Shown one piece after another: positions 7,497 to 50,105 of a stretch of DNA of 64,000 bases. The translations under genes were made by a program, and so were the position numbers. The stretch comes from Verrucomicrobiia bacterium (GTDB taxonomy: Bacteria > Verrucomicrobiota > Verrucomicrobiia > Limisphaerales > JAEYXS01): positions 248,001 through 312,000 of the forward strand of contig DASWYF010000022.1 in the NCBI GenBank assembly GCA_036405135.1, given 5' to 3'. The stretch's first letter is position 1; each line of letters opens with the position of its first letter. The notes beneath the pieces were generated by a model, which saw only the letters and a program-made list of their open reading frames with translations, did not search any database and had not been told where the DNA came from.

Positions 7497-8672
7497 CTAC
7501 AACGCGTCCGGCAGGGTCATCAGCATGGCCACCCGGCCCAGCAGACGTCCGGCAGCACCGCCATCCATCACACGATGGTCGAAGCTCAAGGTGAGGTTCG
7601 CTTCCATCACAGGTATGAACTGCTGCTTGTCCTCATCCCAGAAGGGGACCTTGCGGCCTGCGCCGAGGCCGAGCACTAGCGTTTGTTCCGGCAGCGGAAT
7701 CGGTGTGGCCCAAGTCAGACCAAATGTGCCGAAGTTCGTGATCGTGGCGATAGAACCACCTGTGGCATCCGCTGGCAGGCGACGTTCACGGGCAAGGGTG
7801 ACGAGTTCGTTGTAGCGATTCGTCAGTTCGCGGAGAGATTTGCGATTGGCATCGCGGATGACGGGCACGAGCACACCATCTTCTGCTTCCACTGCGAAAC
7901 CTATATCGATAGAGCCTGGGTGTGCGATGCGTGAACCGATGAGCCGTCCTGCCGGAGCGCTGTTCTCACCCAAGCCAAGTGCAAGCGCGCGCAAGGCATA
8001 GAGTGCGGGACCAGGTTTCGGATTCTGTGTGGCGCGATGCGCGAGCACGGGGTCCAGTTTCACGGGCATGCCCACGGTCGCGATCGGACGCGTCCAGCTA
8101 CGACGCATGGCATCCGCCACGGCGATACGCATGGAGGAAGCGGGCGTGAGCCGGTTCTGTTCAAGTTTGGTGACAAACGCTTCAAAATCTTCCACCGTCA
8201 CGCGACCGTGCGCGCCACTGCCTGCCAATCCTGCGAGGTCCGCCGCGTGCAGCCCGAGTTCAGCCATGCGTGCTTTCAAACGTGGTGAAAGATAACTGGC
8301 ACCACTGGCGCCAACGGGCACGGGCAAACCTTTGAGGACGGGTTCAACGGTGTTTGAGGACGAAGTGGTGATAGTTGCGCCATCTCCGCCGAAATGAGGT
8401 TTGTCCGCCGCTGGTTTTAATGGGGCGACGTCACTGCTGAGTTCGCCGAGAATGTTTCCTACCGCGTATGTTTCACCTTCGGTAGCAGTGATCGTTTTGA
8501 TTTTGCCCGCGACAGGCGAAGTAACCGTGAGAGTGGCCTTGCTAGTCTCCACTTCCATCACTTCCTGACCGGCGGTGACGGTATCACCTGGCTTCACGAG
8601 CCAGCGAATGACAGTGGCCTCGGCGATGGATTCGCCGAGCTGCGGCATGACGATGGGTATGGTATGCGGCAT
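7497..8672 (-). CDS. 2-oxoacid dehydrogenase E2 component (dihydrolipoamide acyltransferase)
   Basis: Transfers the acyl group from lipoate to CoA in a pyruvate-, acetoin- or branched-chain-type dehydrogenase complex. Residues 1-78 form one lipoyl domain with the lipoylated lysine in VETSKATLTV (Lys45). A peripheral subunit-binding domain follows at about 129-170 (SPRLKARMAEL...HGRVTVEDF), then the catalytic acyltransferase domain, with the active-site motif DHRVMDGG near the C-terminus. At 391 aa with one lipoyl domain it is at the short end for E2. Its start overlaps the E1 beta stop by one base, so the two are translationally coupled. No E3 (lipoamide dehydrogenase) gene is next to it, so E3 must come from elsewhere. 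Confidence 0.92.
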   Translation of the reverse strand: MPHTIPIVMPQLGESIAEATVIRWLVKPGDTVTAGQEVMEVETSKATLTVTSPVAGKIKTITATEGETYAVGNILGELSSDVAPLKPAADKPHFGGDGATITTSSSNTVEPVLKGLPVPVGASGASYLSPRLKARMAELGLHAADLAGLAGSGAHGRVTVEDFEAFVTKLEQNRLTPASSMRIAVADAMRRSWTRPIATVGMPVKLDPVLAHRATQNPKPGPALYALRALALGLGENSAPAGRLIGSRIAHPGSIDIGFAVEAEDGVLVPVIRDANRKSLRELTNRYNELVTLARERRLPADATGGSIATITNFGTFGLTWATPIPLPEQTLVLGLGAGRKVPFWDEDKQQFIPVMEANLTLSFDHRVMDGGAAGRLLGRVAMLMTLPDAL

Positions 8673-9637
8673 TAGTAATTCAAGACGTTGCGGGCAGCAG
8701 CCGTGATGCTTTGGGCAGTGGGACGATGGGCGGCCCAGAGACGTGGGTGAAAAGGAATCGGCGTGTCCTTTGCGTTCAACCGTTGCGGAGGCGCATCCAA
8801 AAGATCAAAACCTTCGCTGACCACACGAGAAATAACTTCTGCGGTGACACCACCCCAAGGCCAGGCTTCACCTACACACAACAAACGGCCGGTGCGTGCG
8901 ACGGATGCCATTACGGTATCCGTATCCAGTGGCTTGATGGAGCGCAGATCCACGATTTCCACCTTGTAACCTTCGGTCGCCAATTCATCCGCCGCCGCAA
9001 GAGATTCGTGCAGCATCGCGCTGTAAGTCACCAGCGTTAGATCACGACCTGCACGTGCGATGCGAGCTTTGCCTACAGGCAGAGCTTCCGTCGGCAGCTT
9101 CTCCGCTTTGAGATGGTAATAAAGGAATTTGTGCTCGCAGAAGATGACGGGGTCATCAATCGCGACAGCATCAAGCAAAAGACTGTAAGCATCTTCCACC
9201 GTGGCAGGCGTGAGCACGACCAAGCCTGGGAAGTGCGCGTAGATCGCTTCGAGGCTCTGGCTGTGGAAAGGGCCGCTGCCACTCGTGCCACCGCAGGGCA
9301 GGCGGATGGTGATGGGGCAGGGGACGTTCGTGCGCCAGTAGTAGGTAGCCGCTTGATTGACGATCTGGTTCAGGCCCACCGTCGAGAAGTCGGCGAACTG
9401 CATCTCGATGATTGGCCGCATGCCTTGCAGCGCTGCACCGATGGCGGAGCCGACAATCGCATCTTCACTGATCGGGGCGTCGATTACGCGTCCGGGAAAT
9501 TGTTGCGCCAGACCTTTGGTGGCTTTGAATGCGCCACCAAAATCACCAACGTCCTGACCGTAGATATAGACGTTCGGATTCTCGCTCAAGGCACGGGCTT
9601 GGGCTTCGCGAATAGCTTCGAGGTAAGTGATGCTCAC
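8672..9637 (-). CDS. 2-oxoacid dehydrogenase E1 component, beta subunit
   Basis: The beta subunit of a heterotetrameric thiamine-diphosphate E1 dehydrogenase, pairing with the alpha subunit encoded just upstream. The protein shows the pyrimidine-binding transketolase domain (TYLEAIREAQ, GQDVGDFGGAFKATKGL, DAPISEDAIVGSAIGAA) in residues 1-180 and the C-terminal transketolase domain (VEIVDLRSIKPLDTDTV) after about 195. The length of 321 aa is typical. The start is a GTG six bases after the alpha-subunit stop, and the stop overlaps the E2 start by one base, giving a tight three-gene operon. Whether the substrate is pyruvate, acetoin or a branched-chain ketoacid is not resolved. Confidence 0.93.
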   Translation of the reverse strand: MSITYLEAIREAQARALSENPNVYIYGQDVGDFGGAFKATKGLAQQFPGRVIDAPISEDAIVGSAIGAALQGMRPIIEMQFADFSTVGLNQIVNQAATYYWRTNVPCPITIRLPCGGTSGSGPFHSQSLEAIYAHFPGLVVLTPATVEDAYSLLLDAVAIDDPVIFCEHKFLYYHLKAEKLPTEALPVGKARIARAGRDLTLVTYSAMLHESLAAADELATEGYKVEIVDLRSIKPLDTDTVMASVARTGRLLCVGEAWPWGGVTAEVISRVVSEGFDLLDAPPQRLNAKDTPIPFHPRLWAAHRPTAQSITAAARNVLNY

Positions 9638-36944: not shown

Positions 36945-37325
36945 ATGCTAGCGGTTGCATACCATCCTTATCTGTTTCTGGTCGTTTTGCTGGGCGTAGC
37001 CATCGTCTTTCCACTCATCCCGCTCGCGCTCGCGAAGCTGTGGGCGAAGAAGTTTTCTCCACCGAAGCCCGGTCCGGATAAGAACGCGACTTATGAATGC
37101 GGTCTGGAATCCAAGGGCGATGCGTGGGTGCAGTTCAAGTCCGAGTATTACCTCTACGGCATCTTGTTCCTGATCTTCGATGTGGAGACGGTTTTTCTGC
37201 TGCCCTTTGCGGTGGCGTTCACGGGGCTTTCGGCGGGGGCGTTTATCGCCATCATGTTCTTTCTGCTGTTGCTGGCAGAGGGATTGGTGTGGGCGTGGAA
37301 GAAGGGTGTGCTGACTTGGAAATGA
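36945..37325 (+). CDS. nuoA: NADH-quinone oxidoreductase subunit A
   Basis: A membrane subunit of complex I, 126 aa with three transmembrane helices. Family residues are visible in ATYECGLESKGDAWVQFK and YYLYGILFLIFDVETVFLLP. It helps form the E-channel beside the quinone cavity with NuoH, NuoJ and NuoK. It opens the nuo operon, with nuoB starting 6 bases after its stop. Confidence 0.96.
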   Translation: MLAVAYHPYLFLVVLLGVAIVFPLIPLALAKLWAKKFSPPKPGPDKNATYECGLESKGDAWVQFKSEYYLYGILFLIFDVETVFLLPFAVAFTGLSAGAFIAIMFFLLLLAEGLVWAWKKGVLTWK

Positions 37326-37331
37326 CGCATC

Positions 37332-37946
37332 ATGGATGAAGGGCTGCGTAATGAATTGAGCAAACAGGGCGTGTTCACCACGACCTTGAGCGACCTCTAC
37401 AATTGGGGGCGTCGCAGTTCCGTGTGGCCGTTGCAATTCGGTCTCGCGTGCTGCGCGATCGAGATGATCGCGGCCTCCATGGCGCGGTATGATTTGGCGC
37501 GATTCGGTGCGGAGGTGTTTCGTCCATCACCACGTCAGGCAGATCTTATGATCGTGGCCGGGACGGTGACCAAGAAGATGGCGCCGCAAGTGGTGCGGCT
37601 CTACAACCAGATGCCGGAGCCGAAATACGTCATCGCGATGGGTGCGTGCGCGATTTCCGGTGGCCCTTTCAAGCAGGGTTACAATGTGCTGAAGGGGATT
37701 GACCGTTATATTCCGGTGGATGTGCACATTCCTGGATGCCCGCCGCGACCCGAGGCGCTTTTGCATGCGTTCATGACGTTGCAGCGGAAGATCGATGAGC
37801 AGGCTATGAGCGGGAAGGCGCGTCCGCGTCATCTGAATCCCGATGCGCCGAGTGAATTTCCGGTGCCGCAATTTGGCGAACACGATCTGGTGCCGCCGAA
37901 GAATGAGATGGTGTGGGAGACACCAGTGGTGACGAGAAACGGCTAA
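37332..37946 (+). CDS. nuoB: NADH-quinone oxidoreductase subunit B
   Basis: Carries the N2 4Fe-4S cluster, the last electron carrier before quinone. The adjacent cysteines are in [11 protein letters not shown], and the remaining ligands in [10 protein letters not shown] and [11 protein letters not shown], so the cluster site is complete. At 204 aa it has a longer C-terminus than the minimal subunit ([17 protein letters not shown] onward). It lies 12 bases upstream of nuoC. Confidence 0.97.
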
Positions 37947-37958
37947 TGATTTGAAATC

Positions 37959-38573
37959 GTGATCGACCTAGAGTCCATAAGGCTGCGAATCGAAGCCAGC
38001 GTGGCGGGCGCACAAGTGACGCTGGTGCCGAATGACTCGCCTGCCGCCCAGCCGTCGCTCTTGGTGGAGGGTGCGCATGGTCTCGCGATCGCCTTATTTT
38101 TGCGCGATGATGCGGAACTGCGTTTTGACTATTGCTCCAATGCGACGGGGGTTGATTGGCTGGATACCGAGCTGAAAGTGAAGGTCAAGCAGGTGGTGGA
38201 TGGTGTGGAGAAAGAGGTCGAGCAAGTGACTAAAAAGCCCGGCTATCTGGAAACGGTCTATCATCTGTATTCGATGGAGAAACGGCATGGGCCGCTGATC
38301 TTGCGGATGCGTACTAGGAATCGTGCGGGTGAAGCGAAACTGCCATCGCTGACATCGGTCTGGCGCAGTTGTGAGTTTCAGGAGCGCGAGATTTACGATC
38401 TTTACGGCATCGAGTTCATCGGGCATCCGGATTTACGCCGCATCTTGATGTGGGATGGGTTCAAGGATCATCCGATGCGGAAAGATTACGTGGAGCCGGA
38501 TGATTACGAGTACGAGCCGACGCCACACGATGAGGTGCTGGAGAAGGCGAAGGAGCATTATCCTGGCAGTTGA
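37959..38573 (+). CDS. nuoC: NADH-quinone oxidoreductase subunit C
   Basis: A peripheral-arm subunit, separate here and not fused to NuoD. The family signature is in ERE-type segment [20 protein letters not shown] followed by [21 protein letters not shown] 37959 is the start. Unlike most operons, nuoD does not follow directly: a 543-base interval carrying a toxin-antitoxin pair intervenes. Confidence 0.95.
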
Positions 38574-38613
38574 ACGGCATAGACATTGCATATAAGAAGC
38601 CTAAATTATCTGT

Positions 38614-38805
38614 ATGAGCAGCAAAGAAATAGCGATGGAGATCATCCGGAAACTGCCGGACGAGGCGTCCTTGCAGGAGATCTCGGATGAGATCGAGTTT
38701 GTGGCTGGAATCAGGCAGGGAGCGATGGAACTGGATCGGGGCGAGTCTGTCTCGGCAGATGAGATACTGAAGCGCATACCCGCATGGGCGAACTCTACAA
38801 AGTAG
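38614..38805 (+). CDS. Antitoxin of a RelE/ParE-type toxin-antitoxin module
   Basis: A 63-aa acidic protein (KEIAMEIIRKLPDEASLQEI, then QGAMELDRGESVSADEIL and KRIPAW). This pattern is common in small antitoxins placed before ParE/RelE toxins; identification rests on that pattern and on the overlap with the toxin gene by 22 bases. The antitoxin would neutralise the toxin and repress the pair. It sits inside the nuo operon, between nuoC and nuoD. Confidence 0.75.
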   Translation: MSSKEIAMEIIRKLPDEASLQEISDEIEFVAGIRQGAMELDRGESVSADEILKRIPAWANSTK

Positions 38806-39107
38806 TCTTTTCGCCACAAGCGGTCAGAGACATTGAATCGATTGTCCGCCATATCGCCTTGCAAGCATCTCCGCAAATCGCAGAGGCCTTTGGTGTGAAG
38901 CTGGTTGGCAAGGCTTTGAGCTTGGAAGCACTTCCGCTCAGAGGCCGGGTGGTTCCGGAAGTGGGGATGCCTTTTCGGGAAATCATTTTTCGCAGTTATC
39001 GGATCGTGTTCCGGATAGTTGGTGAACGGGTTGAGATAGTCCGGTTTTGGCATGCGGCGCGTGGGATCCCGCAGATTGATTCGGATGATTTTGGCAATCC
39101 TGGTTGA
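38784..39107 (+). CDS. ParE/RelE-family toxin
   Basis: A 107-aa toxin of the RelE/ParE superfamily: YKVVFSPQAVRDIESIVRHI at the N-terminus, LPLRGRVVPEVG in the middle and the C-terminal strands YRIVFRIVGERVEIVRFWHA. ParE members poison gyrase and RelE members cleave mRNA on the ribosome; this one is closer to ParE in the opening segment, but the target is not decided by sequence. It starts inside the antitoxin gene and ends 9 bases before nuoD, so the pair is transcribed with the respiratory genes. Confidence 0.85.
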   Translation: MGELYKVVFSPQAVRDIESIVRHIALQASPQIAEAFGVKLVGKALSLEALPLRGRVVPEVGMPFREIIFRSYRIVFRIVGERVEIVRFWHAARGIPQIDSDDFGNPG

Positions 39108-39116
39108 ACTTATTCA

Positions 39117-40274
39117 ATGGAAGCTACGCTGACCAATAGTGACAAGACTGCCGAGGCCACGATTGAGGCTGGTGTCGGCGATCTGCTGGAAGTGTCCATG
39201 GGGCCGCATCATCCGTCCACGCACGGCGTTTTCCGCATGGATGTGGTGCTGGATGGTGAGCGGGTGGTGAAGCTCAAGCCAGTGTTCGGTTATCTGCATC
39301 GTAATCATGAGAAGATCGCGGAGGGGGCGAGTTACCTAGCCTCGATGCCTTACACAGACCGGCTCGATTACTTTTGCTCGATGACGAATAACTGGGCTTA
39401 CGCGTTGTCTGTCGAGAAGCTGGCTGGGCTGCAAGTGCCGGAGCGTGCGGAGTATATCCGCCTCATCACGGCGGAGCTGACGCGATTGGTGAATCACACG
39501 TGTTTGCTGGGCTTTTTAGTGCAGGACATGGGCGCGCTCGGCACGCCCCTCATGTATGCCTTCCGTGAACGCGAGAAGATTCTCGATCTGTTCGAGTCGC
39601 TGAGCGGGGCGCGCATGATGTGCAATTACATGCGCTTCGGAGGTTGCCGCTGTGATCTGCCGACGGGCTGGCTGGAGCAGGCGCAGAAGGTGGTGGATGA
39701 GTATCCGCGTTTTCTGGATGAATACGAACGCTTGCTCATGGGGAATGAAATCCTCATGGCGCGCAGTCAAAATGTGGGGGTGCTGCCCAAGGCTCTGGCG
39801 ATTAGTGCGGGCATCACTGGCCCGATGCTGCGGGCGAGCGGGGTGAACTACGACATCCGCAAGGTGGATAAATACGGCATCTACGACCGCTTCAATTTCC
39901 GTGTGCCGCTTGGCGAACATGGTGATGTTTATGATCGACTGATGATCCGGTTGCTGGAGATGCGGGAATCACTGGGGATTTTGCAGCAGGCGTTGAAAGC
40001 CATTCCTGAAGGGCCGATCATTGATCCGAAGGCGAAGTTGCGTGGCTTCAAACCGAAGGCAGGCGAGGCTTATGGACGCATCGAAGCGCCGAAGGGCGAA
40101 CTGGGTTTTTATCTGATCAGTGATGGCACGCCGAATCCGTATCGCTACCGCATACGTCCGCCGAGTTTCATCAATTTGACGATTCTTGAGGACATGTGCC
40201 TCGGTCATACGGTGGCGGATGTGGTGATCATCTTGGGTAGTGTGGATATCGTGCTCGGTGAGGTGGATCGGTAA
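39117..40274 (+). CDS. nuoD: NADH-quinone oxidoreductase subunit D
   Basis: A 49-kDa-type subunit that forms the quinone site with NuoB. Family motifs are [27 protein letters not shown] and the C-terminal [12 protein letters not shown]. The 385-aa length is normal, with about 20 extra residues before the first conserved strand. It begins just after the toxin gene and is followed within 5 bases by the macro-domain gene. Confidence 0.97.
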
Positions 40275-40278
40275 TAAT

Positions 40279-40803
40279 ATGCGTTGGCTACTCAAACAGA
40301 CTAACTTGCTCGACGAACCGGCAGATGTGCTCGTCTGTTCGGCCAACGTGAGTCTGAACTTATCTGGCGGTGTCGGTGCGGAATTGTTAGGGCGCTATGG
40401 AAATGAGATGCAGAAGACTTTGCATGCGGTCATTCACGGGCGTAGCCCACGGGCGGCGAAGTGTGGCGAAGTGATCGCGTATTCCGGTGCTGAATTGCCT
40501 TACAAAGCGGTGCTGCATGCGGTGGCCATCGATGGCTGGTATAAGAGCAGCCCGCAGATAATCACGGATATCACGCGCAAAGCGTTGAAGATGGCGGCGG
40601 GTTATGGGGCTAAGCGAGTGGCGTTTACGGTGCTGGCAACCGGCTTTGGCAACCTGTCCTTGGCCGAGTTTGCCCAAGGGGTAAGGCCGATATTGGGTGA
40701 TGAATTTCCTCCCGTTGGGGAAGTGGTGTTTGGTCTGTTGCTCGACTTTCAAGTGGCGGAGATGGCGCAACATTTTCCAGAGTTAGAAACTTGTAACGTT
40801 TAA
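40279..40803 (+). CDS. Macro-domain protein (ADP-ribose-binding fold)
   Basis: A 174-aa single macro domain. The ligand loop is seen as ADVLVCSANVSLNLSGGVGA, then VLHAVAIDGW and the second loop VLATGFGNLSLAEFAQGV. Macro domains bind or hydrolyse ADP-ribose and related NAD products. The start is ATG 40279 (MRWLLKQTN); an upstream in-frame start inside nuoD is unlikely. It is not a complex I subunit, yet it lies 4 bases after nuoD and 6 bases before nuoI. It may respond to NAD-derived metabolites, an inference from position only. Confidence 0.8.
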   Translation: MRWLLKQTNLLDEPADVLVCSANVSLNLSGGVGAELLGRYGNEMQKTLHAVIHGRSPRAAKCGEVIAYSGAELPYKAVLHAVAIDGWYKSSPQIITDITRKALKMAAGYGAKRVAFTVLATGFGNLSLAEFAQGVRPILGDEFPPVGEVVFGLLLDFQVAEMAQHFPELETCNV

Positions 40804-40809
40804 AACCGA

Positions 40810-41448
40810 ATGCTCGGCGAAGGCATATTGAAAGGCATGGTGGAAACGGCGAGAAACTTCGCCGGGAGCTATGTGTCCAAAGATCGCCTCACGACGGTCG
40901 AGTATCCGGAGCAACGCATCGCGCCGAAAGAGAATGCGCGGCAGTTTCCGTTCTTGGTGTTCGATGGCAATGATCCGCAAGCGGGCTTGCGCTGTGTGGC
41001 GTGCCAGATCTGCGAGAAGGAATGTCCGCCGAAATGCATCTACATCGAGAAGAGTAAGGACAAGAAGCCAGACTTTGTCGGTAAGGCGCAGATTTATCCG
41101 GCCACGTTTGATATCGATATCTCCGTCTGCATGAGCTGCCAGATCTGTGTGGAGGTCTGTCCGTTCGATGCCATCAAGATGGATCAGGAATATGAGCTAT
41201 CGAATGACGACCGGTTCGGCGGTCTGCTCCTGCACAAAATGGATCTGGCCAAGCCGAATGATTATTTCCGCAAGCTGCATCCGAAGGACGCTGGCGAGAT
41301 CGACGCGGCACGCGTAGCGGCGAAGGAACAGGCTGAAGCCAAGGCCAAGGCAGATGCCGAGGCGAAGGCCAAAGCGGCAGCGGAAGCAAAAGCGAAAGCG
41401 GCGGCAACGCCACCGGCTCCACCGGCGGCTCCGCCCACGGGCGCATAA
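40810..41448 (+). CDS. nuoI: NADH-quinone oxidoreductase subunit I with Ala/Lys-rich tail
   Basis: A ferredoxin-like subunit bridging the electron chain to NuoB. Two complete 4Fe-4S sites are present: CVACQICEKECPPKC and CMSCQICVEVCPFD. After about residue 165 comes a tail of alternating Ala, Lys and Glu (EQAEAKAKADAEAKAKAAAE) ending in Pro-Pro-rich residues, not part of the usual subunit. The gene directly follows the macro-domain gene, and nuoG is missing from its expected place between nuoF and nuoH. Confidence 0.95.
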   Translation: MLGEGILKGMVETARNFAGSYVSKDRLTTVEYPEQRIAPKENARQFPFLVFDGNDPQAGLRCVACQICEKECPPKCIYIEKSKDKKPDFVGKAQIYPATFDIDISVCMSCQICVEVCPFDAIKMDQEYELSNDDRFGGLLLHKMDLAKPNDYFRKLHPKDAGEIDAARVAAKEQAEAKAKADAEAKAKAAAEAKAKAAATPPAPPAAPPTGA

Positions 41449-41460
41449 GGGATCACGGGC

Positions 41461-42666
41461 ATGGATATTGGCGAACTGATCAACTCAATCATCAGCGATC
41501 CAGACCAGGTCTTCGTTCTGACGAAGGCTTTCGTCGTCGGCAAGTTCCCCGCAGGTGCCCAGCCGCTCGTCTCCATCTTGCTCTCCATCATGCCGATTCT
41601 CAGCGTGTTTCCGGGCTTGTTCGCGTTGACGACGATTCTGGAACGCAAAGGATTGGGACGTATCCAAAACCGCTTGGGACCAAATCGCGTGGGCCCGTTC
41701 GGCATCCTGCAACCCGCCGCGGATGGTATCAAAGCACTCATCAAGGAAGATGTCGTGCCGCGTGCGGCGGATAAGTTAGTACACTTCCTTGCGCCCGTGG
41801 TGATCGTGATTCCGGTGATTCTTTCATACGCGGTGTTACCGGTTGGACGGAACATGGTAGCCATTGATCTGGATGCTGGGCTGCTGTTCTTCTTCGCGGT
41901 CGGTGCGTCAACAGAACTGGCGGTGTTCATGGCCGGTTGGTCGAGCCGGAATAAATATTCGTTGCTGGGAGCGATGCGTGCCATCGGGCAGATGATCAGC
42001 TATGAGATCCCGCTCATTCTTTCGGCGGTCACGGTGGTGATGGCCGTGGGCTCGCTCTCCACGACATCCATCGTGGATGCACAAGCGGGCTACTATGGTT
42101 GGCTGCCGAACTGGTATGTGTTCACGCCGTGGGGTTTCGCGGGGTTCCTGCTCTTCGTGACAGCGGCTACGGCAGAGTCGAATCGTTCGCCGTTTGATAT
42201 TCCAGAAGGCGAGTCCGAGATCATCGCGGGTTATTTCGTGGAATATTCGGGATTCAAGTTCGCGCTCTTTTTCCTTGGAGAATACCTCGGACTGTTCGCG
42301 GTGAGCGGTTTGGCTATCACACTGTTCCTTGGTGGCTGGCATGCGCCGTTGCCGTTCCTGGAGTGGATACCTTCGTGGTGCTGGTTCTTTGCGAAGCTCA
42401 TGGGCTTCATCGTGCTATTCATCTGGCTGCGCGGGACGTTGCCACGCCTGCGCCAAGACCAGCTCATGAACTTCGCCTGGAAATTCATGCTGCCGCTTAC
42501 GCTCATCAACATCTTCGTGGCGGGCATCTGGCGGTTTATCGAGCCGGGCTTTATGCGTTGGATCATTTGTGCGGGAATGTTGGTGGCGGCTTATGTGCTA
42601 CTGGGACGCGGTCTGACGGCGGCACGCGGGGTGGCGCCGCGGGAATATCGTTACGCGGAGAATTGA
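41461..42666 (+). CDS. nuoH: NADH-quinone oxidoreductase subunit H
   Basis: The membrane subunit at the junction of the two arms, forming part of the quinone tunnel. Motifs include RIQNRLGPNRVGPFGILQPA, SYEIPLILSAV and AESNRSPFDIPEGESEI. At 401 aa it is longer than the common 320-350, with extra residues at the N-terminus (about 1-35) before the first conserved helix. It begins 12 bases after nuoI and is followed by nuoJ in 4 bases. Confidence 0.96.
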   Translation: MDIGELINSIISDPDQVFVLTKAFVVGKFPAGAQPLVSILLSIMPILSVFPGLFALTTILERKGLGRIQNRLGPNRVGPFGILQPAADGIKALIKEDVVPRAADKLVHFLAPVVIVIPVILSYAVLPVGRNMVAIDLDAGLLFFFAVGASTELAVFMAGWSSRNKYSLLGAMRAIGQMISYEIPLILSAVTVVMAVGSLSTTSIVDAQAGYYGWLPNWYVFTPWGFAGFLLFVTAATAESNRSPFDIPEGESEIIAGYFVEYSGFKFALFFLGEYLGLFAVSGLAITLFLGGWHAPLPFLEWIPSWCWFFAKLMGFIVLFIWLRGTLPRLRQDQLMNFAWKFMLPLTLINIFVAGIWRFIEPGFMRWIICAGMLVAAYVLLGRGLTAARGVAPREYRYAEN

Positions 42667-42670
42667 ACTG

Positions 42671-43222
42671 ATGGAACTGGCCTTTGTCATCATAGCGACG
42701 GTCACGCTCGGTGGAGCGGTGGCGGTGATGTCGTTGCGTCATCTGGTGCATTGCGCGCTGGCGTTGGTGGTGACGTTCGCCGGACTCGGTGCGATGTATC
42801 TGATGCTGAGTGCCGAGTTCGTGGCCTTCGTGCAACTACTCGTTTATATCGGCGCGGTGGCGATTCTCATCGTGTTCGCCTTGTTGCTCACGCGCAGTGC
42901 CACTGAGGAGCCGAATCAAAGTCTCTTGCAGAGTAAGGTGGCGGGCGTGGGGATCGCCTTACTGGCGTTTGGAACGATTGTGGGCGCGTTGCTTTCCAGT
43001 GGACGTTTTGATCGCGTGCAACTGGCAGCACCGATGCTGACGGTGAAGCGCATTGGTGAGGAATTGATGACGCGTTATGTGCTGCCGCTGGAAGCCATCG
43101 GACTCTTGCTGACGGCGGCGACTATCGGTGCGGTGGTGATCGCGATGGAAGAGCGCAAGGTTGCGGACAAGTCGAAGTCTGCTGAGGAGTCTGCGCATAC
43201 ATCGGAGGACAAGCACGGATGA
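42671..43222 (+). CDS. nuoJ: NADH-quinone oxidoreductase subunit J
   Basis: A membrane subunit, 183 aa with five helices. The family-typical helix 3 reads FVAFVQLLVYIGAVAILIVF. A hydrophilic C-terminal tail (KVADKSKSAEESAHTSEDKH) is longer than in E. coli. Its end overlaps the nuoK start by four bases (ATGA). Confidence 0.95.
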   Translation: MELAFVIIATVTLGGAVAVMSLRHLVHCALALVVTFAGLGAMYLMLSAEFVAFVQLLVYIGAVAILIVFALLLTRSATEEPNQSLLQSKVAGVGIALLAFGTIVGALLSSGRFDRVQLAAPMLTVKRIGEELMTRYVLPLEAIGLLLTAATIGAVVIAMEERKVADKSKSAEESAHTSEDKHG

Positions 43223-43524
43223 TCCCGCTGCATTATTACCTCATCGTAGCGGCGATGCTCTTCTGCATCGGCTTGGCAGGAGCATTGATCCGGCGCAATG
43301 CGATCATGGTGCTGGTGGGCATTGAGTTAATGTTGAATGCGGCGAACCTGAACTTCATTGCTTTCTGGCGTTACTCGCCGAATCCGGATGGCAACCAAGG
43401 GGTGATGTTCGCAATCTTCTCCATCGCTATCGCGGCGGCGGAGGCGGCGGTGGGGTTGGCACTGATTATCGCGCTCTATCGGCATTATCGGAATACGGAT
43501 GTGGCGAAGGAGGATAAGAAATAG
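43219..43524 (+). CDS. nuoK: NADH-quinone oxidoreductase subunit K
   Basis: A 101-aa three-helix subunit related to MrpC. The conserved membrane glutamates are seen in VGIELMLNAANLNF and AAAEAAVGLALI. It connects the quinone region to the antiporter-like subunits. Its stop is followed immediately by the ATG of nuoL. Confidence 0.96.
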   Translation: MIPLHYYLIVAAMLFCIGLAGALIRRNAIMVLVGIELMLNAANLNFIAFWRYSPNPDGNQGVMFAIFSIAIAAAEAAVGLALIIALYRHYRNTDVAKEDKK

Positions 43525-45573
43525 ATGGATAACGCCGCCTCCATGCTTTGGTTGATCCCCGCGCTGCCGCTGTTGGCAGCGGTGATCACCACGTTTGTGG
43601 GGAAAGGGCAACGTGGGTTGGCCTCGGGTGTGGCGGTGGCGGGAATGGTGGGAGCTTTCCTCTTGTCGGTGAAAGCGTTCATCGCAGTACTGGGGCAACA
43701 TGGTGTGCCGGTGGTGCACAATTTTCTGTGGTTGGAATTCGGTGAAACGCAGATGCAGCTCGGCTGGGTGCTTGATCCTTTGAGCGCGATGATGCTGGTG
43801 ATGGTGACGTTCGTCGGCACGCTCATCTTCATCTTCAGCATCGGCTACATGGCGCATGATGAACGGTTCACGCGCTTTTTCTGTTTCCTGTCACTTTTTG
43901 CGGCAGCGATGCTGGGTTTGGTAATCGCGAATAATCTGTTGCTGCTTTTCATGTGTTGGGAACTGGTGGGCCTCGCGTCCTATCTGCTCATCGGGTTCTG
44001 GTATCAAAAGCCGTCAGCAGCGGCGGCGGCGAAGAAGGCGTTTATCACGACGCGCATTGGCGACATCGGCCTGTTTCTCGGGTTGCTCTGGCTGTATCGC
44101 GAGACAGGGACGCTGCTTTGCTATGACAATGGGGCCGGGTGTTTGGAGCAATCAGCACTGACGAAGCTCGTGGGACAAATGGCCTTTGGCGGTATAGCGG
44201 TGAGCACGGTGATTTCACTGCTGCTTTTCTGTGGAGCGGTGGGCAAGAGCGGTCAGGTACCGTTGCACGTGTGGTTGCCGGATGCGATGGAAGGTCCGAC
44301 GCCGGTGAGCGCGCTCATCCATGCGGCGACGATGGTGGCGGCAGGCGTGTTCCTCATGGCACGGGTGTATCCGCTGCTGGCCGTAACCCCTGACGGACCA
44401 GCGAATGACACGGCGGCGCTGCAAGTGATCACGTGGGTGGGAGCGATAACGGCAGTCTTTGCGGCATTCATCGCGATGGCACAGAATGATATCAAACGCA
44501 TCCTCGCATACTCTACGGTGTCGCAACTGGGCTTGATGTTTGTAGGCTTGGGCGTGGGTGGTGTGGCGGTGGGAATGTTTCATCTTATCACGCATGCGTT
44601 CTTCAAGGCGTTGCTGTTCCTTGGTTCGGGTTCCGTGATTCATGGATGTAATGAGGAACAGGACATTCGTAAGATGGGCGGCTTGCGGAAATTCATGCCG
44701 GTGACGTTTTACGCTTATGGGATAGGTATGATCTCGCTGGCGGGCGTGATCCCGTTCGCTGGCTTCTGGAGTAAGGATGAGATCATGCACAAGGCGCATC
44801 AGTGGCCTGCTTCGGAGATTCCATACTATCTCGTGCTGGTGGGCGCGTTTCTGACGGCGTTCTACATGACGAGGCAAATGGCGTATGTGTTCTTCGGCTC
44901 GAATAGAGCGGCTTCTGCTCATGGGCACGAAACCAAGACACATGAGCCGCATGAGAGTCCGGCGGTGATGACGGTGCCGCTGATTGTGTTGGCCGTCTGC
45001 GCGACTCTAATCGGGTTTCTCGGGACACCAGCGTGGCCTTGGTTTGAATCGTTTGTGCATGGGCATGAAGTGGTTTTTGATGGTGGCAAATTGCTCCATG
45101 CCTGGCCAACGATTCTGACATCCATCGTCATCTGCGGTATCGGTGTCGCAGCCGGATGGGGTTACTACGGACGAAAGGCAATTGATACGAGCAAAGCAGA
45201 TCCACTGCACGGATTGCTGCCGAATGTCTATCCGGCGTTGGAGAAACGGTTGCTCATTGATGAACTGTATGAAGCGACGGTGATCGCGTGGCAGAAGGCT
45301 TGGGCGCAGGGATGCGATTGGCTGGAGAAGCAAGTATGGCAGGGCGTGATGGTGGTAATGAGCATTGGATCGCAAGTGCTAGGCTGGGTGAATCGCATCA
45401 TCGACGAGATCGTGATCAATGGCGGGTTCAATGCGAGTTGTGCGAAGTTGCAGGAATCGGGCGATAAGGTGGAACTCGCGCATCGGGGAAATATCCAACG
45501 GGCTTTGCGTGGATTGGGCATCGCGCTGACGATTCTCGTCCTGCTGCTGTCATGGGGGTGCAGCAAATCATGA
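43525..45573 (+). CDS. nuoL: NADH-quinone oxidoreductase subunit L, enlarged C-terminal region
   Basis: The distal antiporter-like subunit, 682 aa against about 613 in E. coli as I remember it. Pump residues are present: TM5 glutamate in MCWELVGLASYLL and TM7 lysine in GKSGQVPLHVWL. The lateral helix region (about residue 577 to 654, LIDELYEATVIAWQKAW to DKVELAHR) spans about 77 residues before the final membrane helix; in E. coli NuoL the same interval is about 47. An elongated lateral helix would reach across an additional antiporter subunit. It is followed by two nuoM genes, with an ATGA overlap. Confidence 0.96.
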   Translation: MDNAASMLWLIPALPLLAAVITTFVGKGQRGLASGVAVAGMVGAFLLSVKAFIAVLGQHGVPVVHNFLWLEFGETQMQLGWVLDPLSAMMLVMVTFVGTLIFIFSIGYMAHDERFTRFFCFLSLFAAAMLGLVIANNLLLLFMCWELVGLASYLLIGFWYQKPSAAAAAKKAFITTRIGDIGLFLGLLWLYRETGTLLCYDNGAGCLEQSALTKLVGQMAFGGIAVSTVISLLLFCGAVGKSGQVPLHVWLPDAMEGPTPVSALIHAATMVAAGVFLMARVYPLLAVTPDGPANDTAALQVITWVGAITAVFAAFIAMAQNDIKRILAYSTVSQLGLMFVGLGVGGVAVGMFHLITHAFFKALLFLGSGSVIHGCNEEQDIRKMGGLRKFMPVTFYAYGIGMISLAGVIPFAGFWSKDEIMHKAHQWPASEIPYYLVLVGAFLTAFYMTRQMAYVFFGSNRAASAHGHETKTHEPHESPAVMTVPLIVLAVCATLIGFLGTPAWPWFESFVHGHEVVFDGGKLLHAWPTILTSIVICGIGVAAGWGYYGRKAIDTSKADPLHGLLPNVYPALEKRLLIDELYEATVIAWQKAWAQGCDWLEKQVWQGVMVVMSIGSQVLGWVNRIIDEIVINGGFNASCAKLQESGDKVELAHRGNIQRALRGLGIALTILVLLLSWGCSKS

Positions 45574-47123
45574 ACGGCTTCTCCCCATTGACCTTGCTGA
45601 TGTTGCTGCCGCTGTTCGGCGGATGTGTGCTTTTGGGATTGGAGAAACACCAGCGGGCGTTTACGCGGCATCTGGCGTTCGGGGTGAGCCTGCTTACGTT
45701 GGCACTCGCATTGTTCATCGGCAGCCAGTTTGATTCCACTAGTGGTGAGTTACAGATGGTGGAGCGGCATGCGTGGATGCCGTCGCTGGGCGTGGAATAT
45801 TTTGTCGGTGTAGATGGACTCAGCCTGGTGTTGCTCTTGCTTACCGCGTTGTTGGTGCCGATGAGCATGTTGGCGGCGTGGAAGTTGGAGGAGCGCACGT
45901 CTATGTTCTTCGCGCTCATCTTGTTCCTGCAAGGGGGCTTATTCGGGACGTTCACGGCGCTGAACTTCATTCACTGGTTTCTGTTCTGGGAGTTGAGTTT
46001 GGTTCCAGCGTTCTTCCTGGTGAAATTGTGGGGTGGGCCTGAACGCGGAAAAGCGGCGATCCAGTTCTTTGTTTACACAATGGTCGGTAGTGTGACGCTG
46101 CTGCTCGCGTTTCTGGGGATGTATCTGGCAGTTGGGACGTTTGATTTCATCAAGTTGGCCGAGCTGGCGAAGAGTGGAGAACTGCTCTCGCGGATGAGTT
46201 TGAATCTTGGCTGGTATGAATTGAAGAAGGAACAGCTCGGACTGGTGATCGCGTTCGGGGTTTTCCTTGGATTGGCGGTGAAGGTGCCATTGATGCCATT
46301 TCATGGCTGGTTGCCGAGGACTTACTCCACAGCCCCGGCCGCCGTGACGATGCTGCTCACGGGTGCGATGTCCAAGATGGGCGTGTATGGTTTTCTGCGC
46401 ATCTTCCTGCCGATCTTTCAGGAGCAAATCGCGTTCGTGCAGAACTGGCTGCTGTGGCTGGCCATAGCGACGATCGTGATGTCAGCACTCGCGGCTTCGG
46501 CGCAGACGGATTTGAAGAAGCTGCTGGCGTATTCTTCCATCAACCATCTGGGCTACTGTCTGCTGGGAATATTCGCGACGGCGAGCAGTGTGAATGGTCA
46601 CGGCTGGACGGTGGAGGCTTCGGCGGCTTTGGGCGGAACGGTTTTGCAGATGTTCAATCACGGCATCACGGCGGCGTTGTTGTTCTGTTTCGTGAGTTAT
46701 CTCGAAGAACGTGGAGCAGGGGAAACGAATCTGTCACGGTTTGGCGGATTGCGAGCGGCGATGCCCGTGTTCTGTGGGTTGATGGGTGTGGCGACGTTTG
46801 CTTCTTTGGGCTTACCGGGATTGAGCGGGTTTGTGGGCGAATTCTTAATCTTCAAGGGGACGTTCGGTCTGGCGGCGTGGGCGGCGGTGTTGGCTACGCC
46901 GGGTCTGCTCATCACAGCAATCTTCCTGCTGCGGATGTATCAACAAATTTTCTACGGACCGTTGCCGTCCACACATGTTGGCTGGCGTGATTTGGATATT
47001 CGTGAGCGGTTCACGGTGCTGCCGGCGTTGCTGCTGGTGCTGATTTTGGGTGTGTATCCGCAACTGCTGATGGGCTTGATCAATCCAACGGTGACGCGTT
47101 TGGTAGAAGGGCTGGCGAGGTGA
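45570..47123 (+). CDS. nuoM: NADH-quinone oxidoreductase subunit M, first copy
   Basis: An antiporter-like proton-pumping subunit of about 14 helices. The essential charged residues are intact: TM5 glutamate in FWELSLVPAFFL, TM7 lysine Lys238 in LAVKVPLMPFHGWL, TM8 lysine in GAMSKMGVYG and TM12 glutamate in SGFVGEFLIF. ATG 45570 overlaps the nuoL stop; a start at 45552 adds six residues. The second nuoM begins one base after its stop, so the duplication is in tandem. Confidence 0.95.
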   Translation: MNGFSPLTLLMLLPLFGGCVLLGLEKHQRAFTRHLAFGVSLLTLALALFIGSQFDSTSGELQMVERHAWMPSLGVEYFVGVDGLSLVLLLLTALLVPMSMLAAWKLEERTSMFFALILFLQGGLFGTFTALNFIHWFLFWELSLVPAFFLVKLWGGPERGKAAIQFFVYTMVGSVTLLLAFLGMYLAVGTFDFIKLAELAKSGELLSRMSLNLGWYELKKEQLGLVIAFGVFLGLAVKVPLMPFHGWLPRTYSTAPAAVTMLLTGAMSKMGVYGFLRIFLPIFQEQIAFVQNWLLWLAIATIVMSALAASAQTDLKKLLAYSSINHLGYCLLGIFATASSVNGHGWTVEASAALGGTVLQMFNHGITAALLFCFVSYLEERGAGETNLSRFGGLRAAMPVFCGLMGVATFASLGLPGLSGFVGEFLIFKGTFGLAAWAAVLATPGLLITAIFLLRMYQQIFYGPLPSTHVGWRDLDIRERFTVLPALLLVLILGVYPQLLMGLINPTVTRLVEGLAR

Positions 47124-47124
47124 T

Positions 47125-48615
47125 ATGAGCGCACTGCCCTGGACCATCTACGTGAGCTTTCTCGGAGCGTTGCTCGTGGCGCTGCTGCCAGCGGGTAATC
47201 TGCGGCATATCCGGTTCGCTGCGCTGGGGACTGGACTGGTGGGTTTATTCATCGGGCTAGCCGCAGCGGTGCAGTGTGATGCGAGTGCGGATGTGGTGAC
47301 GCTGACGAAGCTCAAGTGGATTCCGGCTTTCGGTGCAGAATATCATCTGGCGGCGGATGGTATCAGTGTGGTGATGGTGTTGCTGACGGGCATCGCGGCA
47401 GTGACGGGTGTGCTGTTTTCCTGGAACGTGACGCATCGTTTGGAAGAATTCTTTGCGTTCTATCTGTTACTCATCGGGGCGGTGTATGGTGTGTTCCTTA
47501 GCTTCGATCTGTTTCTGTTTTTTGTGTTCTACGAACTGGCGATTGTGCCGAAGTATTTTCTCGTGGCGATCTGGGGCGGACAGAATCGCGAGTATGCGGC
47601 GATGAAGTTGGTGCTGTATTCGTTCGTGGGCAGTGCGCTTGTGCTGGTGGGAATTGTTGCGACGCTGGTAATGGCGGGCGGACAGACGGCGAGCTTGGAG
47701 GTATTGGGGCAAATCCAGTTCGCAGCCTCGTTCCAGCATTGGGTATTTCCGCTGATGTTTTTTGGGTTTGCGATTTTGGCGGGTATTTGGCCGTTTCACA
47801 CGTGGGCACCAACAGGTCACGTGGCGGCTCCGACGGCGGCTTCTATGTTGCTGGCAGGTGTGATTATGAAGCTCGGTGCGTATGGGGCATTGCGTGCAGG
47901 TGTTTGTCTTTTTCCGGAAGGATTGCTCGCTTGGCAGAATGTGCTGGGTTGGCTGGCGGTGATTGGGATCGTGTATGGTGCTTCGGTAGCGCTGGTGCAG
48001 AAGGATTTCAAATTTGTCATCGCTTACTCGAGCGTGAGCCACATGGGGTTTGTGATCTTGGGACTGGTGAGCATGAATGCGATCGGCTTGACGGGAGCGA
48101 TTTTGCAAATGTTCTCGCACGGCATCATCGCGGGACTGCTGTTCGGCGTGGTGGGACGGATGGTGTATGAGCGGGCGCATACGCGGGACTTAAATGCGCT
48201 GCAGGTGATGAATCTCAGCAATGCCTTACCCTTCGCAGCGGGGACATTTGTGCTGGCGAGTCTGGCATCGATGGGGCTGCCGGGCTTCAGTGGGTTTGTG
48301 GCGGAGTTCTCGGTATTGATCGGAGCTTGGGCGTTGGATCCGACTAAAGCGGTGGTGGCTGGTGTGGGGATTGTGGTCGGTGTGGCATTCACGTTGCGCG
48401 CATTGCAGACGGCTTTCTTCTCGGACGCAGAGCCGATTGCAGAAAAGCATCATGAAGAGATGAAGCCAATCACGGTGCCGGAACGGGCAGGGGCGCTCAT
48501 ACTGTTGGCGACGACCTTGATCGTCGGCTTATATCCTAAGGTTCTTCTGAATTTGATTCAGCCAGCTTTGGCATCACCGCTCTTTGAAGCGTTGCGAAAA
48601 GGACGGTTGGAATGA
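47125..48615 (+). CDS. nuoM2: NADH-quinone oxidoreductase subunit M, second divergent copy
   Basis: A second NuoM-type antiporter-like subunit, 496 aa. The TM5 glutamate (FYELAIVPKYFLVAIWG), TM8 lysine (GVIMKLGAYG) and TM12 glutamate (SGFVAEFSVL) are present. The TM7 lysine five residues before PFH is Leu218 (GFAILAGIWPFHTWAP). The copy is divergent from the first, not a recent duplicate. Its stop overlaps the nuoN start (ATGA). Two-NuoM complex I variants are known from other bacteria; by that knowledge it would be an extra pumping or spacer module. Confidence 0.93.
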   Translation: MSALPWTIYVSFLGALLVALLPAGNLRHIRFAALGTGLVGLFIGLAAAVQCDASADVVTLTKLKWIPAFGAEYHLAADGISVVMVLLTGIAAVTGVLFSWNVTHRLEEFFAFYLLLIGAVYGVFLSFDLFLFFVFYELAIVPKYFLVAIWGGQNREYAAMKLVLYSFVGSALVLVGIVATLVMAGGQTASLEVLGQIQFAASFQHWVFPLMFFGFAILAGIWPFHTWAPTGHVAAPTAASMLLAGVIMKLGAYGALRAGVCLFPEGLLAWQNVLGWLAVIGIVYGASVALVQKDFKFVIAYSSVSHMGFVILGLVSMNAIGLTGAILQMFSHGIIAGLLFGVVGRMVYERAHTRDLNALQVMNLSNALPFAAGTFVLASLASMGLPGFSGFVAEFSVLIGAWALDPTKAVVAGVGIVVGVAFTLRALQTAFFSDAEPIAEKHHEEMKPITVPERAGALILLATTLIVGLYPKVLLNLIQPALASPLFEALRKGRLE

Positions 48616-50105
48616 TGCCGGTGAATTATCTGCATTTGGTGATGGGGCTCATTCCCGAGCTGCTATTGGTGGCGGCAGCATTGGCGGTCTTGGGGGTGGA
48701 CCTGATGGTTTTGCGGGAGGAATCCAAGCGGGTGCGATTCGGCTTTGGGGCGGGCTTCACGGGTTTCGCTGCGCTGGCGGCAATCTTTTGGATGACGACG
48801 AGCACGGAGCCAGCGGTGTATCTGGGTGGTTCATTTATTGTCAGCCATTTGACGCTGTGGGTTAAGGTCGGGCTATTGTTGCTGACGCTGTTGACGGTGG
48901 CTTTGTTCGTGGATGGTGAGTTCACAGAGCATGTGGGCGAGTGCGTGGCACTTATCTTGTTCGCGACGGTGGGCATGATGCTGCTGGTGAGCGCGGGTGA
49001 TCTGTTGCTGCTGTTCGTGGCGTTGGAACTGGTGAGCTTGTCGCTGTATTCACTGGTGGCGTTCGATAAACGGAATCGCGAGGGCATTCATGCAGCGCTG
49101 CAATATTTCCTCTACGGCGGTATGGCGGCGGCGTTTATGCTTTTCGGTTTCAGTCTGCTCTACGGTTTGACGGGCAGCACTTTGATTTCGGAAGTGGGCA
49201 AAGGGCTGGCGGATAAAGCGAATGATCCGGTGCTACTGGTGGCGATGGTCATGGTGATGGTGGGACTGGGCTTCAAGGTGGCGGCGGTGCCGTTCCATCT
49301 GTGGGCGCCAGCGGTGTATCAAAGCGCACCGGGACCGGCGGCTGCGCTCATCGCTTCGGGTTCCAAGCTGGCGAGTTTTGTGGTGGTCGCGCGGTTGATG
49401 TATGCGGGCTTCACGGGAGTGGAAGGCGATGCGGCGTGGCGGAGTTATACGGTGGGATGGATGCCGTTGCTGGCGGGCATCGCGGCGTTTTCCATGGTGC
49501 TGGGAAATCTTGCAGCACTGGCGCAAAGCAGTCTGCGGCGATTGCTGGCGTTCTCAGCGGTTGCACATGCGGGATACATGCTGCTGGGTGTGCTGGCGGT
49601 GAAGGAGACAGGATTGCAGGCGGTGATTTATTATGCATTCACGTATGGCGTGGCGACGATCGGGGCGTTCGGTGTGGCGGTATTGGTAGAGCGGCAGCGG
49701 GGAGGGGATTCACTGGCGAACCTGGCGGGAATGGCGAAGCAGTCGCCGTTGATGGCGGTGTGCCTGATGATCTTCGTTTTGTCACTGGCGGGGATTCCGC
49801 CGCTGGCGGGTTTCGTCGGTAAATTCCACGTATTCCTTTCGGCGACGGCGGTGAAGGCACCTTCGCTTGGCCTCCTCTGGCTGGTGGCGTTGGCCATCGC
49901 GACGAGTGCGATCTCGCTCTACTACTATCTGCAAGTGCTCAAGCAGGCTTGGGTGGTGCCGGGGAATGAAACGGTAGTGGAACTGAAGCCCGGTGTGGTG
50001 ACGTTGGTGGTGCTGTGCTTGTTGGCGGTGCTTACGATTGTTTTGGGCTGTGCACCAGAGATGGTGTTGGGGCCATTGGCGGAAGCATTGAAGAGTGCGT
50101 GGTAA
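48612..50105 (+). CDS. nuoN: NADH-quinone oxidoreductase subunit N
   Basis: The antiporter-like subunit nearest the quinone side, 497 aa. The TM7 lysine is present in LGFKVAAVPFHLWAP, and the TM8 lysine in ASGSKLASFVVV. The glutamate in TM5 lies in LFVALELVSLSLYSL. It ends the nuo operon; a terminator hairpin follows. No nuoE, nuoF or nuoG occurs before the converging minus-strand cluster. Confidence 0.95.
   Translation: MMPVNYLHLVMGLIPELLLVAAALAVLGVDLMVLREESKRVRFGFGAGFTGFAALAAIFWMTTSTEPAVYLGGSFIVSHLTLWVKVGLLLLTLLTVALFVDGEFTEHVGECVALILFATVGMMLLVSAGDLLLLFVALELVSLSLYSLVAFDKRNREGIHAALQYFLYGGMAAAFMLFGFSLLYGLTGSTLISEVGKGLADKANDPVLLVAMVMVMVGLGFKVAAVPFHLWAPAVYQSAPGPAAALIASGSKLASFVVVARLMYAGFTGVEGDAAWRSYTVGWMPLLAGIAAFSMVLGNLAALAQSSLRRLLAFSAVAHAGYMLLGVLAVKETGLQAVIYYAFTYGVATIGAFGVAVLVERQRGGDSLANLAGMAKQSPLMAVCLMIFVLSLAGIPPLAGFVGKFHVFLSATAVKAPSLGLLWLVALAIATSAISLYYYLQVLKQAWVVPGNETVVELKPGVVTLVVLCLLAVLTIVLGCAPEMVLGPLAEALKSAW

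Follow-up and report, generated by a model that had tools for sequence, protein, structure and literature searches.

The second NuoM of a verrucomicrobial two-NuoM complex I operon belongs to a NuoM branch with leucine in place of the TM7 lysine

How does a NuoM subunit of complex I work when leucine stands in place of its TM7 lysine? The question is raised by the second nuoM gene (nuoM2) of the window, by which we mean the whole stretch of 64,000 nucleotides analysed. Part of contig C22 in a genome of 5.8 Mb, the window carries a 12-gene nuo operon (36945-50105) in the order nuoA-B-C-D-I-H-J-K-L-M1-M2-N (Table 1), with small extra ORFs between nuoC and nuoD and after nuoD. According to an earlier note on this DNA, NuoM2 may either pump by an altered route or act as a passive spacer. 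Both NuoM proteins score above the cut-off of the NCBIfam model TIGR01972 NDH_I_M (461.1 bits for NuoM1 and 449.1 bits for NuoM2; cut-off 263.8), and NuoM2 also matches the Pfam Proton_antipo_M domain. Contig C38 of the same genome encodes another complex I, of the ordinary kind (nuoB, C, D, E, F, G, H, I, J, K, L, M, N). Comparison with the nuoE, nuoF and nuoG genes of contig C38 detected none of the three in the window, nor in seven other two-NuoM loci (L039, L042, L048, L051, L059, L070 and L107), which reach at most ~9 kb to either side.

Table 1 Positions in the window of the nuo genes and of the NuoM2 codons discussed in the text
Feature	Position	Strand	Remark
nuoA, B, C, D, I, H, J, K	36945..43524	+	upstream part of the same operon
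nuoL	43525..45573	+	carries the 25-residue lateral-helix insertion, ~residues 620-645 (~45382-45459)
nuoM1	45552..47123	+	ion-pair NuoM; TM7 Lys244, codon 46281-46283
nuoM2	47125..48615	+	496 aa; lysine-less type; second of the two NuoMs
Glu137 codon (TM5), kept	47533..47535	+	Glu in 155/155 Lys-less NuoMs
Lys143 codon (TM5, six residues after Glu137)	47551..47553	+	Lys in 103/103 of the NuoM2 clade
Leu218 codon (replaces TM7 lysine)	47776..47778	+	Leu in 96/96 NuoM2-like proteins
Gly220 codon (replaces TM7 proline of K-x-P)	47782..47784	+	Gly/Ser/Ala in 155/155 Lys-less; Pro in 136/136 Lys-type
Ala228 codon (replaces leucine gate, L242 of P. denitrificans Nqo13)	47806..47808	+	Ala/Ser in 155/155 Lys-less; Leu in 136/136 Lys-type
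Lys249 codon (TM8 middle lysine), kept	47869..47871	+	96/96 NuoM2-like; Lys in 152/155 Lys-less, Gln in 3
Glu394 codon (TM12), kept	48304..48306	+	155/155 Lys-less NuoMs
nuoN	48612..50105	+	TM7 Lys222

The founding paper on the two-NuoM ('2M') complexes is that of Chadwick et al. (2018, ISME J, doi 10.1038/s41396-018-0210-1). Our comparison with 2M complex I draws on PMC9040806, PMC6606698 and PMC11636273; here and below, papers are cited from excerpts. The two nuoM genes of the window are adjacent, and the lateral helix of its NuoL is ~25 residues longer than that of the C38 NuoL. The columns of this insertion are filled in 65 of 65 NuoL proteins from related loci, and an excerpt of PMC9040806 gives ~26 residues for the NuoL insertion of other 2M complexes. 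On these two features, which it shares with known 2M complex I, the window operon encodes a 2M complex. The 2M complex of Nitrospira clade 3 is without nuoE, F and H (PMC6606698), whereas the window operon retains nuoH and is without nuoE, F and G. Gene order is identical in the relatives that we found in Verrucomicrobiota and Acidobacteriota, and a NuoM2 of the window's clade occurs in 15 of 288 Verrucomicrobiota genomes and 5 of 149 Acidobacteriota genomes (even draw; 60-64% identity). In Acidobacterium capsulatum, a complex I with duplicated nuoM is transcribed, as reported in an excerpt of PMC11636273.

The NuoM2 stretch GFAILAGIWPFHTW begins at residue 214, which places Leu218 five residues before PFH. 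Its counterpart in NuoM1 is Lys244, counted from the ATG at 45552; the Lys238 of the earlier note is the same residue with Met7 taken as the start. The leucine was found in 96 of 96 NuoM2-like proteins (the window and all 95 loci examined), none of which retains the lysine, whereas the matching residue is lysine in 84/84 NuoM1, 88/88 NuoN and 65/65 NuoL proteins, counted after exclusion of those cut by contig ends or by the length filter. The earlier note had reported this replacement relative to NuoM1 and NuoN, together with retention of the TM5 and TM12 glutamates and the TM8 lysine. Both observations hold: Glu137, Lys249, His306, His332 and Glu394 are each kept in 96/96. An isolated substitution or sequencing error is ruled out by the constancy of Leu218, which exceeds what chance would give, and an alignment slip by the total absence of lysine at positions 214-222 in these proteins. 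In the solved chains that we inspected residue by residue (two sets, of four and five distinct sequences), the lysine was present. The loss of a 'central' TM7 lysine, as the earlier note put it, is therefore real in substance; the adjective is misplaced, as 'central' or 'middle' lysine usually denotes that of TM8, which is kept. The TM7 lysine forms one half of the TM5-TM7 ion pair (excerpts of PMC10212512 and PMC11496545), and its description as part of the proton path was inexact: in the simulations of Nqo13 excerpted from PMC11496545 the ion pair acts as an electrostatic gate ~14 Å off the main path. Of the features that mark an ion-pair-type NuoM, NuoM2 has the TM5 glutamate, the TM8 lysine and a TM12 glutamate instead of lysine, but neither the TM7 lysine nor the TM7b leucine gate, in whose place stands Ala228. 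Since residue 218 is leucine in 96/96, NuoM2 is best classed as a NuoM by homology, but not of the ion-pair type.

The lysine was not lost alone. Among 291 distinct NuoMs (collected as the top matches of three queries and belonging largely to two phyla, with ORFs <430 aa or with short matches dropped), residue 218 was leucine in 155 and lysine in 136, with no third residue. Positions 218, 220 and 228 occurred in four combinations, Lys-Pro-Leu (136), Leu-Gly-Ala (103), Leu-Ser-Ala (46) and Leu-Ala-Ser (6), and no mixed state was seen in the 291. Residue 228 of NuoM2 corresponds to L242 of Paracoccus denitrificans Nqo13 and L214 of Thermus thermophilus Nqo13, in each case ten positions beyond that of the TM7 lysine, and is the N-side 'leucine gate' in excerpts of PMC9802314 and PMC13220270. 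Compared with canonical NuoM/Nqo13/ND4 (P. denitrificans, E. coli, T. thermophilus), NuoM2 shares the fold, TM5 glutamate, TM8 lysine, two axis histidines and TM12 glutamate, but is without the TM7 lysine, the proline of K-x-P and the leucine gate, and has a new basic residue on TM5. In P. denitrificans Nqo13, K232Q and L242A each singly abolish the NADH:UQ activity of the purified enzyme (excerpt of PMC9802314). The L214A variant of isolated T. thermophilus Nqo13 conducts protons faster (excerpt of PMC13220270), and opening of the ion pair by E123Q has the same effect (excerpt of PMC11496545). Given that Nqo13 loses its activity when either the lysine or the gate is mutated, complexes that carry the natural combination must, if they function, have some form of compensation.

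A first NuoM2 model, built from 47 NuoM2 sequences only, was poor around TM7b; its best Foldseek match was P. denitrificans Nqo13 (8qby_M; TM-score 0.91 of query). A better model from 72 sequences reached a mean pLDDT of 93.2 and a pTM of 0.93. In it, TM5 spans residues 129-150 and TM8 residues 237-260, TM12 is broken between 383 and 389, and TM7a ends at 218, followed by a break at 219-226 and TM7b at 227-234, so that the broken helix is predicted to survive without lysine and proline. In 61 genomes with all four subunits, mean pairwise identity was 69.8% for NuoM2, 64.4% for NuoL, 63.0% for NuoM1 and 57.1% for NuoN, and NuoM2 identity exceeded that of NuoM1 in 1801 of 1830 genome pairs.

The NuoM of the ordinary complex I of the same genome (locus L008) also has leucine at the lysine place, in the stretch GFGILVSLWPFHTW, which rules out that NuoM2 is odd merely as a spare copy. 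The C38 NuoM falls in the same clade as NuoM2 and has the same three losses, but it carries His136, His243 and Lys248 in place of Lys143 and Tyr in place of His at 232, and is encoded together with nuoE/F/G as part of a three-antiporter complex. The TM8 of this protein served to define a DNA motif (H-x-G-x-x-K-K-F-G), which was present in 90 of the 288 genomes of the phylum, all 90 lying within the 94 genomes of the window's class (membership counted by hand) and none in the other 194. Three of the four class genomes without it (G036, G057 and G078) had no NuoM-like match, and the fourth (G102, locus L215) has the variant HAGALKKFG and is lysine-less, which shows that such counts miss variants; 91 of 91 NuoM-bearing class genomes thus have the lysine-less type. 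The lysine-type motif occurred in 17 of these 91 (again counted by hand), of which 15 carry the 2M operon, where the motif belongs to NuoM1; in the remaining 74 no lysine-type NuoM was detected, as judged by absence of the DNA motif. Such motif searches carry some noise: in one, 4 of 19 matches lay outside NuoM2 places, and in another, 1 of 25 genomes (G097) gave what looks like a chance match. Of 20 regions drawn, residues were read for 17 NuoMs, L210, L214 and L219 being lost to the length filter. In four operons read whole or in part (L008, L208, L218 and L219), nuoD-E-F-G adjoin the class-type nuoM, and the NuoM of the ordinary NADH-type operons L008, L208 and L218 is lysine-less.

Outside the phylum, lysine-less NuoM was found in Bacteroidota records of Phocaeicola massiliensis, Bacteroides finegoldii and Prevotella nigrescens, the Prevotella operon being annotated with A, B, C, H, I, J, K, L, M and N but no E, F or G. 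Like NuoM2, these proteins combine the lysine loss with the TM5 glutamate and TM8 lysine, here with Ala220 and Ser228; unlike NuoM2, they are the single NuoM in the stretches read, and their added basic residue is His243. A maximum-likelihood analysis of 57 proteins, for which two NuoN served as the outgroup, placed the Leu218 proteins in one clade (98/93), and a second tree of 65 rows, which includes named Proteobacteria, Actinobacteria and one Bacteroidota row, again recovered a single Lys-less clade (99/95; 100% of 200 bootstrap trees). Within it, NuoM2 and the ordinary verrucomicrobial NuoM form separate branches, supported at 100/100 for NuoM2 and, for the ordinary type together with the f21 group, at 100/99. 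As NuoN and NuoL keep the lysine, the simplest history would be one loss on one stem. A gain of lysine in the Lys-type NuoMs is less simple, given that NuoN and NuoL also carry it, although the position of the root depends on just two long NuoN rows. Read from these sequences, the loss of this buried lysine and of two residues near it is a hallmark of a whole NuoM branch present in soil, water and gut bacteria. Two genomes have single-NuoM operons in which no nuoE/F/G was detected and the NuoM is lysine-less (L023/L220 on contig C33 of G012, and L198/L224 of G426). These NuoMs group with a Bacteroidota NuoM (98/84), which suggests transfer or deep ancestry. In another genome of the phylum (locus L225 of G046, C3:3500-22000), NuoM and its neighbours are open only if TGA encodes an amino acid: the longest ORF is 222 aa with table 11, against 539, 492 and 482 aa with table 4. 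The NuoM of this genome contains 8 TGA codons and a NuoM-like match of G269 contains 9; UGA recoding is possible.

We then compared basic residues in TM5 and TM8. In the TM5 core (132-147), a basic residue occurs in 0/136 Lys-type NuoMs, whereas the NuoM2 clade has Lys143 (103/103) and the ordinary verrucomicrobial NuoMs have His136 (43/43). In the TM8 core, Lys-type NuoMs have exactly one basic residue, Lys249, and the ordinary verrucomicrobial type has three (His243, Lys248 and Lys249); six other Lys-less NuoMs have His243 (five) or His247 (one) beside Lys249. Summed over the TM5 core, position 218 and the TM8 core, basic residues number two in both Lys-type NuoMs and NuoM2, four in the verrucomicrobial type, again two in the six others and one in L221-L223. 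The last group has Lys248 as its only basic residue in the TM8 core, with Gln249 and Ser332; its net loss of charge without visible compensation counts against a relocated residue. The candidate compensating residues were chosen after the groups had been compared, and the changes are clade-level ones in about four lineages. With lineages rather than sequences as the independent units, and with this post-hoc choice, the relocation of basic residues to TM5 and TM8 in Lys-less NuoMs is suggestive as a pattern but does not amount to a test. Most NuoM1 rows also have Lys or Arg at 148, near the TM5 end, which shows that the Lys type, too, can have a basic residue in this part of the helix. The L221-L223 proteins (family f21 of the phylum) are lysine-less with two TM5 glutamates (137 and 139), and nuoF and nuoG lie in the same operon as the f21 NuoM in L222 and L223.

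Taken together, we favour, at a probability of about 0.6, the reading that NuoM2 is a proton-passing subunit of a monophyletic lysine-less NuoM branch that is gated differently, with a basic residue elsewhere replacing the switching function of the TM7 lysine. In this branch, the TM5-TM7 Glu-Lys ion pair, the N-side leucine gate and the TM7 proline were removed together, and the line from the TM8 lysine over His306 and His332 to the TM12 glutamate was kept; this line would conduct a proton from the N side via the TM8 lysine to the TM12 glutamate. The TM5 glutamate would stay at the subunit interface and, with the relocated basic residue, may set the barrier. Electrostatic switching would be taken over by Lys143 in the NuoM2 clade, by His136, His243 and Lys248 in ordinary verrucomicrobial NuoM, and by His243 in Bacteroidota. 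In the 2M arm, an ion-pair M1 and an ion-pair-less M2, presumably in this order, would act in series under a lengthened NuoL clamp. The altered pumping route raised by the earlier note fits this picture, the TM7 proline and leucine gate being lost as well and Glu137, Lys249, His306, His332 and Glu394 remaining. We count against it the complex I of Bacteroides fragilis, which is without NuoEFG, had no NADH:quinone activity and could be deleted without a colonisation defect (excerpt of PMC7002350); the comparison is made at the level of a Bacteroidota complex I, and according to the authors of that paper the null result may reflect the missing NuoEFG or poor expression.

Alternatively, Lys143 might replace the TM7 lysine in space and re-pair with Glu137 or with the neighbouring subunit, leaving the mechanism unchanged. 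Its constancy in the NuoM2 clade, its absence from every Lys-type NuoM and the equal basic-residue sum of both types speak for such a direct substitution. It lies six residues from Glu137, however, or ~9 Å of helix along TM5 by general helix geometry; the ordinary verrucomicrobial and Bacteroidota NuoMs, also Lys-less, have Thr or Met at 143; and the leucine gate and proline change too, which a simple swap would not need. We consider this alternative unlikely.

Two further readings fare worse. NuoM2 could be a leaky, passively filling subunit with a permanently wet N-side half, whose stroke is controlled only by the neighbouring subunits, as in NuoL-exit models (described in an excerpt of PMC10212512); the faster proton conduction of the L214A and E123Q variants agrees with this. 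The same NuoL-exit model, however, needs a TM7/TM5 switch in each subunit, and the extra basic residues in TM5 and TM8 point to a new gate rather than to none. We consider a leaky NuoM2 improbable. Least probable of all, in our judgement, is the passive spacer of the earlier note, in which NuoM2 would conduct no protons and only lengthen the membrane arm. The inactive K232Q and L242A enzymes of P. denitrificans are what can be said for it. A spacer is disfavoured because NuoM2 is the most conserved of the four subunits, with the five residues named above invariant in 96/96, and because the same type serves as the NuoM of ordinary three-antiporter complexes, being the only NuoM detected in 74 of the 91 NuoM-bearing class genomes (Lys-type motif absent).

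No description of a lysine-less NuoM was found in the literature that we searched, whose coverage was incomplete and did not extend to subscription papers, so an earlier mention is possible. More broadly, we tentatively put forward, at slightly less than even odds, that these proteins represent an ancient second NuoM pump design without TM5-TM7 ion pair or leucine gate. In most of the genomes sampled from one Verrucomicrobiota class, the respiratory complex I would have no NuoM but this; the design would also occur in Bacteroidota, and the 2M arm would combine one subunit of each design. A review (excerpt of PMC10212512) describes a pairing of LysTM7 with GluTM5 in every antiporter-like subunit and treats the TM12, TM8 and TM7/TM5 sites as the minimum for its mechanism. 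If Lys-less complexes pump normally, the TM7 lysine switch that every antiporter-like subunit must have in current wave and domino models would be dispensable. A NuoM branch that naturally does without the lysine and the gate, and that occurs in genomes with no other NuoM detected, offers a ready-made mutant set for the role of the ion pair. With such natural enzymes, the choice between models of ion-pair gating and of exit through NuoL only could become a matter of experiment.

Two of the additional ORFs in the window operon have recognizable domains. A Macro-domain protein (PF01661; 40240-40803) lies between nuoD and nuoI and overlaps the 3' end of nuoD; it had no match among the ORFs of 80 related loci. 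The ORF at 38784-39107, between nuoC and nuoD, is of the ParE toxin type (Pfam PF05016), and a related ORF (37% identity) is located at ~8645-9001 of locus L039, just before nuoM2.
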